From Paracyclopina nana (lineage: Eukaryota > Arthropoda > Copepoda > Cyclopoida > Cyclopettidae), in assembly GCA_019096065.1 (NCBI GenBank), contig JAGUCH010000006.1, forward strand, positions 2,686,001-2,750,000: a DNA stretch of 64,000 nt, given 5' to 3'. A program made the position numbers and the translations under genes. The notes below the pieces were generated by a model. The model did no database searches, was not told where the DNA came from, and saw nothing but the letters and a program-made list of their open reading frames with translations. Position 1 is the stretch's first letter, and each line of letters opens with the position of its first letter. Of the stretch, positions 8,201 through 17,906 are shown piece by piece.

Positions 8201-11200
8201 GCGCAAGTTTTTACCCCTACTCAAGTACCAGCTACAATTCCCGCTGGGAAATTTCCCACCATCTTTTATTATTGTAGAATGACTCACGCACCCACAAGTG
8301 TGGGAGGGCCTTGATGATAATCGCATTAAAAACCAGCCTGATGGCCTTGATGGCAAGCAGACTAGTGGTGTAAGGACCCAAAGGAATTGCGTTTCTTTCT
8401 CTAAAGCTCTTTCCGAGCCGCCTCTTTTTAAAAAGGCCTCCTGAGCTACTTGAACGACCTTGAGACGATCTTGCAAATTCGTTGGGAGTATCTGATCCTG
8501 ATATGGGCCCAAATGGCTGAAGGATTCAACCTTGGGTAAAATCCACACGAGGACACCTTAATACATTGCACTTTGACGACTTGCATGGGTATATTAGCAT
8601 GGAAAAGGGTAATTGGAAAAATATCACTCCTCGCGGCTGCTTAAGCTAACAATGCAGATGTTCTGCGGCTATTTGTAAGCTGATATGACAACTCATCCTT
8701 AAGAGACTACATCTTATCTTATTTGACTTAATCCAGATGGGCAAGCTATATTTCCAGGGATAAAACCAAAAACCAAATAAAACTAGGGATTTATATTGCC
8801 ACCAGGTGGCGCGCTCAGTATGCGGCCGATTTGGCAGATAGAGAAACAGAAATACATTTTTAAGCCAGGAGTCCACGGCAGTGGAAAAGAGAAAAAGTGC
8901 AATTTATGGAACGCGGTTCCTTGCTCAGTGGCATGAAGCAATGCAAAAAAGCTGCAATTTTTTTGGCAAGAGCCTCTCAACGCAAAATTTAAAGTGCTCA
9001 CGAAGCAGCAAAATATTGGTGACGGGCGCATATATAAAATTGCTGCAGAAAGCCTTTTGTGTCGAGGAGCACCACTCAAATTTCCACCACTACTTTGCTA
9101 CTATATATCCAAATCCACATAGCTCACGATGATCATGATGGTGGAATTGAATTTCAATTTTGGGAGGTTGCATCATCAGAGCAAATACCTCCATTATGCT
9201 ACTACTACGGTGGAAGCCTGCCTTGAAAAATTGTGCACTAAGTTCCATCTCTCAGGAAAGAAGAGAATTTGTAACGTTATTTTCGAGTGAAAGCAAAGGA
9301 GGAGAAGTAACTGATGATGGGCCTTAGGTTAATGTCTTCACCAAGATTAACGACTTTTTTTATACACTGCACTGCAAAAAATACTTTTCTAAACCAGGAC
9401 TACACGCGCGCGTATTTTGTACCAATGCCTATTCGGAAGAACTCAATTCGTGACTATGTGTCCTTACGAAATTCCACCAGCCATTCATGATTCTCTATCA
9501 GTCAGGACTGAAGACACAAAAGGGAGATGGGAAGAAGAGACTTCCTTAATTATTAACCAGGCAGGCCCTGCTTCCCAAGAAATGGCTGGCGACCCTAAAA
9601 ATAGCACTGCTGCTGCTACTACCTTACAGTTGAAATTTCCACTCAAAAACTTATGCCATAACTCAAAATGGTTCATTACCAAAGTTTTTATGGGGCCTTT
9701 CTGCAGTATTCTGCTGATAACAATGTGTGTTCACTTCTCAGAGCGTAGAACAGTTATCTGGATAATTCTGCAGCCAACTAATTACCTGTCTCTGATATAA
9801 TATTGCTGAAACCACGAGAGTTCCGAGTCCAACGAATCAACCTCACTGGGCATGATTTCGTCATCGTTCTCCTCACTATGGAAGCTATCTTCGATCGATT
9901 CAGTTAAATCATTCACAACAACCTTTTCTATCTCTTCGAGCTCCTCTTCAAAGGAAACTTCATCATCTTTATCAGCAGGTTGAAAAGCGGCATTTTCTTC
10001 CACCAAAGAGGAGCAGTCACTGCTAATGTCATCGATTGAGATTTCCGAGCCTGCTTCATTTTCAGACTCGGAGCTCGTGAAGATATCTTCAGTCTCAGAC
10101 CTGCCAACGCTTCTTGACGGTGATCTGGATCTGTTCTTGCGCTTCCAAAACCGCTGCGATTTCAGACTGGCTGGCGGCTGAGGCTTTTTGTTGAATATCG
10201 CTGCTTCGGGGGCTCCTGGCAAGCCTCTGAAGAGATCGAATTGCAGCCATTGTTTGAGGAAGAAAATGCAGATGAAAAATGTCAACATCTCCGAGAGGCA
10301 AGCCAGGAAATGTGCCAGCAGTCGGATCACGGTGGCCTCTTTTGGCACTTCAAACAAAATAATATCTTTGACGAGGAAGAAGCTCGTGGAGATGAGGTCC
10401 GCCTCCTCGGTGGACATGGGAGTATTTTGAGGTATTTGTTGAAAGAGCTGCTGGTGGGTTTCGTCGATATGAGCATTGCTGTTAATCGATGAGCCGAGCA
10501 TCAGTGTGAAAGTTGGGTGCTCATAAAGAAAGTCTACTCAATTAGTTATGGACTAATTTAATGTTGCTTGTGGCCATCGGGGAAAAAGAAGGTCAAATAC
10601 CTTCTGCAGGCCCATGTGAGTTGTTTACATTTTGAGCGTTTTCACGAGATAATTGCTCGACATTTAGCACATTTAAAAAGGCTTCATGTCACATTTTTGA
10701 CCTTGGAGCTAAAGTAAATATGAACAAAGGCTGACCTCATCAGTAGAACAACGATGGAATGTTTCCTTGTTTTTTCGTTCTATTATAGCAGTAGTTGGAA
10801 TCGAAAAAGTTTGGCCAGCTATAGAAAGCCCTAAAAAATTGATATACCTTCCTGGCTGCTTCCACGAGGCTAATTGAATCCAATTTTGTCTGCCAACCAT
10901 AAATACACGAGAGCTTGCTCGTGTTATTACTAATTCAATGCTGAGGCCGAAAATAAAAAGCAAAGGTTCGTTTCCTCTGTTGCAATTGAGTCCAGAACTA
11001 ATCAGTAGATCTCTCACTAATTGCAGCTCGTTGGGCTCGATTTAGTTTATAGCAGCACACTTGAGTCGATCTTGACGTCACTTGGCACAGCAAATTTGGT
11101 AGTGAGGCATAGAGTATATCTAACACACCCCAATATCACCAAGAGAAGTTGAACAACTTTCTTGCCGCAGAATTCATGGCTGAACTTAAATCAGCTGAAT

Positions 11201-17200: not shown

Positions 17201-17906
17201 TATTGAATTACTGTCACTTAGTAGCTTAACTTAATGTGGCCTTTTGTCTATCGGAATAAAACCACGAATTGGCTTTTGTAGCTATTTCAATTCTTGGAAG
17301 ATCCTCGCCCGCAACCATCATTCAAGAATCATAGTCTTTTCGTAAAAATTAATCAATATGCCAGCCTTTCCATCATTTAAAACGCTATCAATTGTGTCAT
17401 ACACATCCACAATCTTTGCATTTTTTCGCATATACAGCAAGCTTACTTATCAGGTAAAAAGGTGGATACATTAAAAGAGAGCCTCATATTTAAGGCTATT
17501 TATAGATTTCAACGAAATTTTCAGCGCACATTCATCAGTATTTCCCTAGAACGACGCCACTTGTCCGCGCAGAAAAGACATGACATGGTCAGTTCGTATA
17601 ACTTTTAAAGCAGCCATCAGCCAAAAACTGAATAAAATGCAGATGTTTCTCGACTTACCTGGGCTGAGTACTCCTCGTTTCTCTAGAATTCGAATTGCCA
17701 CTCGCTGCCGAATTCGGAGCCGTTCCAGACGATGGTGTCACAGCTTCGTCTTTTTGTAGATTTGAAGACTTGCGTCCCTTAGGATTTTTCCGCTTTTTCT
17801 TGGCCTGTATCGCCAATACTGAAATGAAAAACTCCCATGATGTCAATGCCGCTTGAAACAGCAAATGAAGCTCACCCCTTCGATTGATGTCACCCTTCGA
17901 GCTCAT
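5212..17906 (-). CDS. SRPK: SR-protein-specific kinase (SRPK), canonical transcript model
   Basis: Exons, minus strand: 17906-17876, 17818-17659, 7571-7474, 7417-7309, 7241-7154, 6912-6285, 6216-5828, 5763-5493, 5399-5212; 653 residues, all GT-AG and phase-consistent. The first two exons are assigned because [13 protein letters not shown] matches the N-terminus of SRPK1, and they join in phase to the acidic [18 protein letters not shown] block. Kinase motifs: glycine loop GWGHFSTVW (about 116-124), [17 protein letters not shown] (about 243-250), DLGNACW (about 494, DLG instead of DFG), then [18 protein letters not shown] charged spacer of about 200 residues splits the kinase lobes, as usual for SRPKs. 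The enzyme phosphorylates Arg-Ser-rich splicing factors. The 10-kb intron 17658-7572 contains further candidate first exons, listed separately. Confidence 0.93.
7572..9785 (-). other. SRPK large intron, 3' part
   Basis: About 2.2 kb between the common SRPK exon (acceptor at 7572) and the candidate first exon ending at 9786. Frames up to 125 codons occur on the minus strand but lack donors, conserved motifs or coding-like composition. I see no gene, RNA or repeat in it. Confidence 0.5.
9786..10501 (-). CDS. SRPK: Candidate alternative first coding exon of SRPK with hydrophobic segments
   Basis: An ATG at 10501, the first in frame after an in-frame TGA, opens 238 codons ending exactly at a CAG|GTAATT donor (phase 2). 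The common SRPK exon at 7571 begins in phase 2 (GAC AG|G TCA), so the join reads ...[18 protein letters not shown] and gives an 828-residue kinase. Residues about 40-95 are rich in hydrophobic residues ([25 protein letters not shown]). An RS-containing basic patch ([16 protein letters not shown]) and a long acidic Ser-rich tail follow. Caveat: when a GTAA donor overlaps the stop, phase 2 is automatic, so phase agreement alone is weak support. A separate small membrane-protein gene is the alternative. Confidence 0.5.
10502..12907 (-). other. SRPK large intron between candidate first exons
   Basis: About 2.4 kb. If the exon at 9786-10501 is a true first exon, its promoter lies at the left end of this stretch. 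Frames of 70-116 codons on both strands show no family resemblance. No RNA gene or repeat was recognised. Confidence 0.45.
12908..13518 (-). CDS. SRPK: Candidate alternative SRPK exon, Ser-rich disordered
   Basis: From an ATG at 13518, 203 codons run to a good donor (GGG|GTAAGT, intron side beginning at 12907) in phase 2, as the common SRPK exon requires (793-residue product). The frame is open upstream without another ATG and contains acceptor-like TTTTCAG near 13570, so it might instead be an internal exon. The protein is low-complexity and probably disordered: [16 protein letters not shown], a Gly/Ser stretch, a short Ala run and a Ser/Tyr-rich end. It contains many Ser-Pro pairs that could be phosphorylated. 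No domain was recognised. Composition and the exact ORF-to-donor fit argue for coding. Confidence 0.5.
13704..14539 (-). CDS. SRPK: Candidate alternative first exon of SRPK, Ser/Pro-rich
   Basis: An ATG at 14539 opens 278 codons ending at CCA|GTAAAT (phase 2), compatible with joining to the SRPK exon at 7571 (868-residue product). The sequence is strongly Ser/Pro/Arg-rich with repeated Ser-Pro motifs ([24 protein letters not shown]) and two similar segments, [10 protein letters not shown] and [10 protein letters not shown]. It looks like a long disordered phospho-region. Such frames are unlikely in non-coding DNA of this composition. It could instead be a separate single-exon gene ending at the TAA inside the donor. 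No domain was recognised. Confidence 0.52.
14540..16374 (-). other. SRPK large intron between candidate first exons
   Basis: About 1.8 kb with no recognised gene. It contains the CT repeat at 14727-14744 (listed separately). Frames of 70-99 codons end in ordinary stops not embedded in donors. Confidence 0.45.
14727..14744 (-). promoter_or_regulatory. GAGA-type repeat upstream of the 14539 exon
   Basis: A run of TC dinucleotides on the plus strand (GA on the minus strand) lies about 190 nt upstream of the ATG at 14539. GAGA repeats are common in arthropod promoters, so this fits an alternative transcription start here, but the motif alone is weak evidence. Confidence 0.3.
16375..16568 (-). 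CDS. SRPK: Possible small alternative first exon of SRPK, basic
   Basis: An ATG at 16568 opens 64 codons that stop at GC|GTAAGA, a reasonable donor in phase 2. The C-terminal half is Lys/Arg-rich ([20 protein letters not shown]), like the basic N-terminus of the canonical isoform. Spliced to the exon at 7571 it would give 654 residues, almost the canonical length. It is short enough to be chance, so confidence is low. Confidence 0.28.

Follow-up and report, generated by a model that had tools for sequence, protein, structure and literature searches.

In a 64,000-nucleotide window of the genome of the copepod Paracyclopina nana (assembly GCA_019096065.1, contig JAGUCH010000006.1, positions 2,686,001 to 2,750,000, numbered here from the first base of the window), we found a genuine SRPK kinase gene on the minus strand and, in the intron behind its canonical N-terminus, three long open frames, A, B and C, that fit the kinase exons in phase. 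These features probably belong to one SRPK gene with four alternative starts, a canonical two-exon head and the single-exon heads A, B and C, the last three being for the most part low-complexity or disordered-looking targeting segments. It is probable that A, B and C are alternative coding exons, and most likely that they are first exons, which would make the gene a richer variant of the arrangement known from Drosophila Srpk79D.

In the spliced model, the nine coding exons join into a clean protein of 653 amino acids. The canonical head is encoded by two exons and lies 10 kb upstream of the kinase exons, where an earlier sequence-only reading of this DNA had placed the canonical N-terminus. 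The first (17876..17906) gives 10 residues and ends in phase 1, and the second (17659..17818), placed by the spliced model and by splice scoring, ends in phase 2 at a CAG/GTAAGT donor. The shared exon (7474..7571) contributes 32 residues and, also as proposed, accepts phase 2 at its acceptor 7571. Six further exons (7417-7309, 7241-7154, 6912-6285, 6216-5828, 5763-5493 and 5399-5212, together spanning 5212..7417) encode the bipartite SRPK kinase and its spacer, as indicated by the spliced model and by matches to structure chains. Among the best 60 of 74 such matches to the kinase core, the closest chains are SRPK2 and SRPK1, followed by Sky1, all ahead of CLK. The SRPK chains match the protein in two separate stretches, and a charged spacer divides the two halves. 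The genome, 92 Mb in 10 contigs, contains 80 hits of the cuticle chitin-binding domain PF00379, the mark of an arthropod. In searches of it, a late kinase exon gave 15 matches, the runner-up by score being 39% identical, and a query of 35 residues from the glycine-loop exon gave a single match; neither of these two exon queries found a second SRPK. The kinase exon has no relatives in the viral or prokaryote collections, and no RNA family reaches its gathering score between 7000 and 18600. Directly after the SRPK stop codon, a very acidic stop-free frame of 86 codons (4951-5211, minus strand) with a short tandem repeat at 5096-5148 may be 3′ untranslated region (UTR) or an alternative tail.

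Frames A (13704..14539), B (12908..13518) and C (9786..10501) lie on the minus strand. Each opens with an ATG, contains no stop and ends two bases into a codon at a GTAA, exactly at the coordinates and in the phase given by the sequence-only reading, and the same is true of a shorter fourth frame, D. As a candidate first exon, A would supply a Ser/Pro-rich head of 279 residues, the last of them completed by the shared exon, B a Ser-rich head of 204 residues, and C a head of 239 residues. The three frames are longer than chance and coding-like. Introns of 10,087 bases were simulated 300 times with an order-2 model trained on the intron sequence that remains when A, B and C are taken out. They held 0.03 open reading frames (ORFs) of at least 200 codons per run and none of at least 240, against three of at least 200 observed. 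From stop to stop, A, B and C extend over 297, 251 and 240 codons, and the other five frames of the same DNA hold 4 to 22 stops each. Their codon scores (0.244, 0.145 and 0.182) exceed the maximum of 0.077 among 835 null stretches (-0.148 ± 0.066) and fall within the range of other long ORFs (0.107 ± 0.123 for the 51 used in training). A synonymous-codon test was uninformative, giving -0.13, 0.01 and 0.06 bits per codon for A, B and C and about zero for the known kinase exon. None of the three has a Pfam match; A and C, the two searched against the PDB, have no relatives there, and A has none in the viral collection. Each is single-copy in the genome, B having one extra match at an E value of 0.5, so that an origin from a transposon or by duplication is unsupported.

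Splice sites were scored with metazoan frequencies that were not trained on this genome, a limit to be counted with the objections gathered below. The donor of B (GGG/GTAAGT) is matched or exceeded in score by 0.6% of the region's 672 GT sites, that of C (CAG/GTAATT) by 1.0%, and that of A (CCA/GTAAAT), which is about equal to the gene's own donor after 7309 (-0.32 versus -0.36), by 10.7%. The terminal donor ranks first among the 28 GTs within B, first among the 25 within C and second among the 39 within A. The sequence-only reading had cautioned that a frame ending in a GTAA donor is automatically in phase 2. This is correct, but the base rate of such endings is low: 11 of the 70 other ORFs of at least 200 amino acids end in GTAA, four of them score at least -0.4, the level of A, and one scores at least 5 (25 of all 73 such ORFs overlap another, and the counts are not fully independent). 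On the receiving side, acceptor 7571 ranks first of the 673 AGs between 17650 and 7560. Twenty-five acceptors between 13650 and 7560 score at least 1.5 and ten of these open at least 20 codons in phase 2, three with a positive codon score, namely 13234 within B, 10226 within C, and 7571.

Other connections were tried and rejected. Splicing of A into B fails at the two best acceptors before B, 13569 (phase 0) and 13562 (phase 1), where the phases misfit; a lower-scoring AG, at 13597 (1.4), does call for phase 2, but it is located upstream of the ATG of B. The AG at 13661, 42 bases past the donor of A (score 3.0), opens a stretch of 20 codons whose codon score is negative. Acceptor 7736 on the minus strand, the second-best of the whole intron and 165 bases before the shared exon, opens 12 codons in phase 2 and then meets a stop; it is possibly the start of a poison exon or a 5′UTR exon. 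Frame D (16375..16568, minus strand), a short basic frame, we take to be an ORF that arose by chance and exclude from the gene, leaving four heads where the sequence-only reading had allowed for up to five alternative first exons. Its codon score is -0.06, 3-base periodicity is absent (its level is reached by 1081 of 1378 null windows), its length is ordinary in an intron holding 57 ORFs of at least 60 codons, and its donor is the weakest of the four frames, equalled by 16.8% of the 672 GT sites.

Both the canonical start codon and that of A have an A at -3. An initiator-like TCAGTC (17982..17987, minus strand) lies 81 bases upstream of the canonical ATG. Frame A is preceded on the same strand by a similar arrangement (14659..14743), with TCAGTC at 14664, 125 bases upstream of its ATG, and a GA repeat (GAGAGA starts 14743-14733) about 70–80 bases further up. 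These consensus matches are suggestive only. TCAGTY occurs 0.64 times per strand-kilobase, and the chance of finding one within 300 bases is about 17%, which makes the initiator-like sites weak evidence.

The proposed arrangement resembles that of Drosophila Srpk79D (CG11489), which, according to the accessible text of PMC2759580, uses alternative promoters to make RB/RE and RC/RF transcripts encoding PB (749 residues) and PC (816 residues). Like that gene, the copepod SR kinase gene would combine alternative transcription and translation starts with unrelated heads on one kinase, and here the frames, donors, acceptor and phase fit are read from sequence. Overexpressed tagged PC, which bears the PC/PF head, was found at active zones and PB in spots in the perikarya (PMC2759580, accessible text), and the RB form was poorly moved out of the soma (PMC2737616, accessible text). 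The remark in the sequence-only reading that Srpk79D isoforms differ in N-terminal exons and in localisation is borne out by these sources. By the count in the same portion of PMC2759580, Drosophila has three genes that closely resemble human SRPK1-3, namely Srpk79D, CG8174 and CG8565, whereas in P. nana the one SRPK gene found would carry a short canonical head and three long ones. The product of the RC/RF first exon, as far as the primers in PMC2759580 reveal it, ends in RPIRQS. Across its junction with the shared exon, A gives PPINQS, a likeness seen by eye that we treat as a lead only. The ATP-site lysine of Drosophila SRPK79D is residue 376 (PMC2737616, accessible text) and the distance from the junction to this lysine is 76 here, which suggests, on the assumption that the linkers are alike, that the Drosophila head is about 300 residues long, close to the 279 of A.

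Several observations count against the four-start arrangement. The codon score of A is frame-blind, since this GC-rich DNA scores 0.25 in two further frames as well. In a harsher control, a model built on each frame's own stop-poor sequence reached the length of A in 60 of 400 runs (B, 9 of 400; C, 4 of 400), and the length of A alone is therefore not decisive in such GC-rich DNA. Three-base periodicity, which speaks for the frames, is strong in C (2 of 898 null windows are as strong; known kinase exon, 0 of 962) but no more than moderate in A (17 of 823) and B (26 of 902). The donor of A is weak, as the GT count above indicates. Start contexts are poor in B and C, which have no A at -3, and neither has a TCAGTY within 1 kb upstream. 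Inner phase-2 AGs could turn the frames into cassettes (14489 in A, score 3.6; 13234 in B, 2.5; 10226 in C, 1.6; the gene's own eight acceptors score -1.0 to 8.2). Finally, the available part of PMC2759580 reports no clear functional difference between the Srpk79D isoforms, PB also rescuing the BRP phenotype, which tempers the remark in the sequence-only reading that the difference matters; in conflict with this, RB does not rescue in the corresponding part of PMC2737616.

We consider it unlikely that some members of the set, most of all A, act as cassettes, spliced in after the canonical head and before 7571 and adding a long insert without a new start. The AG at 14489 follows a pyrimidine-rich tract and would keep about 261 codons of A, leaving about 16 upstream, and entry and exit in phase 2 fit the frames. 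Human SRPK1a is a precedent: in the accessible text of PMC6624410, this N-terminal SRPK variant from one gene carries a 171-residue insert, which comes from a retained intron, in contrast to the alternative first exons proposed here. Yet cassettes would leave unexplained the parts of B and C upstream of their inner AGs (94 and 91 codons), which are themselves coding-like (0.148 and 0.128), and whole-frame exons are therefore favoured for B and C; the ATG of A, for its part, comes shortly after the initiator-like site and the GA repeat.

That the set is only partly real, with one or two frames being decaying or chance ORFs, is quite improbable. The codon score of A without frame specificity, the modest periodicity of A and B, and a length of A that is not rare for its own composition would all agree with it, but the joint length test and the confinement of each of A, B and C to one open frame would not. 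The least probable reading takes A, B and C for independent genes of one exon each, lying within the SRPK intron and ending at TAA. Each frame is indeed complete from ATG to TAA, but all three stops coincide with possible donors of the same phase, a coincidence seen, with a score no lower than that of A, in 4 of the remaining 70 long ORFs. Furthermore, on the minus strand A and B are not followed by an AATAAA until 11838, over 1 kb past B, nor C until 8270 (12086 holds an ATTAAA), and the lack of Pfam relatives, and of PDB relatives for A or C, also speaks against independent genes.

Under the preferred four-start reading, A, B and C would each have their own start codon and probably their own promoter, and the phase-2 donor of each would join it to the exon that begins at 7571 and is common to all, leaving the kinase unchanged. 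By analogy with Srpk79D, the heads most likely control location. The canonical form would carry out the usual phosphorylation of SR proteins, head A might direct the kinase to presynaptic scaffolds, possibly through an SH3 ligand for RIM-BP, and head C might tether it to membrane. The RIM-BP and membrane ideas were formed post hoc from the head sequences.

Head A contains 57 Ser and 45 Pro in its 279 residues, with 18 S/T-P sites against a shuffle mean of 11.4. It also contains DSGIYS, which fits the DSGxxS degron form; such a motif occurs in about 2% of 2,000 shuffles. In addition, it contains RRMLPETPK, close to the RIM-BP SH3 ligand of Aplip1. The RIM-BP SH3 peptides given in the accessible part of PMC4536467 are RRKLPEIPK of Aplip1, RRLPPTPSK of Cac, RQLPQVP of RIM1 and RQLPQLP of RIM2. 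The core RxLPxxP is present in A and C (RGLPGAP) but not in B or D, in the canonical head or elsewhere in the kinase, and is matched three times in 28,541 amino acids of 81 control ORFs. This motif was chosen after the heads had been read, which weakens its significance; RxLPxxP arises in 793 of 20,000 shuffles of A and in 28 of 20,000 of C. The genome encodes RIM-BP at two places (C1:13422748-13425115 and C6:6820330-6828119), in each of which an SH3 domain is 75% identical to Drosophila SH3-II. The C1 copy has two of its three SH3 matches within an open frame of 1072 codons and may be an intron-poor duplicate or a retrocopy. An Aplip1 query found no match in the genome, a miss that says nothing on absence. 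Two results speak against the motif's having this role in Drosophila. When RIM-BP SH3 domains were used in a two-hybrid screen, the partners named in the available text of PMC4536467 were RIM, Cac and Aplip1, not SRPK79D, and the available text of PMC2759580 reports a failed co-precipitation of SRPK79D with BRP, which is not RIM-BP itself.

In head C, a 19-residue stretch with a mean hydropathy of 2.04 falls within a predicted helix (residues 54-92) that is possibly membrane-inserting. In the structure predicted without an alignment, the predicted local distance difference test (pLDDT) block means for residues 61-90 are 85, 93 and 85; the model as a whole is poor (mean pLDDT 56.1), and of its helices this is the only confident one. 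RGLPGAP comes after the helix, then a short run of arginine/serine (RS) residues and a tail that is acidic. An SR kinase tethered to membrane would come as a surprise; among the papers listed by a search for one, none deals with such a kinase as judged by title and the opening of the abstract.

A wider reading, which we regard as doubtful, is that the single SRPK gene does what Drosophila divides among its SRPK genes, the heads serving as address labels, with A binding RIM-BP to reach active zones and C yielding a membrane-anchored SR kinase with a second RxLPxxP. If so, the SRPK duplication in Drosophila would have split an older gene with alternative first exons, and RIM-BP binding would be a mechanism for targeting the Srpk79D-PC head to active zones, a route left open in the accessible parts of PMC2759580 and PMC2737616. 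A head carrying a RIM-BP ligand of the published type would allow a short peptide test of active-zone targeting, and isoforms of one lineage matching separate genes of another would make a testable case. Among the papers listed by searches of the open literature for alternative first exons or promoters of SRPK genes and for arthropod SRPK isoforms with transcription start sites, none describes such a gene outside Drosophila.

The proposed architecture also recalls another type of gene. UGT1A-type genes have clustered variable first exons that share a phase and join one acceptor and a constant part, the first exons being mutual duplicates. The P. nana gene would likewise have several first exons in a row, in the same phase and with one acceptor; unlike UGT1A first exons, A, B and C each searched the genome without matching the other two.

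An Rrp15-family gene (18581-19435, plus strand) stands head-to-head with SRPK, their first ATG codons about 0.7 kb apart. Further along the window are two frames matching serpins (21442-23568, minus strand) and a giant FAT/CELSR-like cadherin gene (31143-45137, minus strand) with very long exons and with EGF and laminin-G domains, in which frames of 2440 and 1480 codons hold 18 and 12 cadherin stretches.

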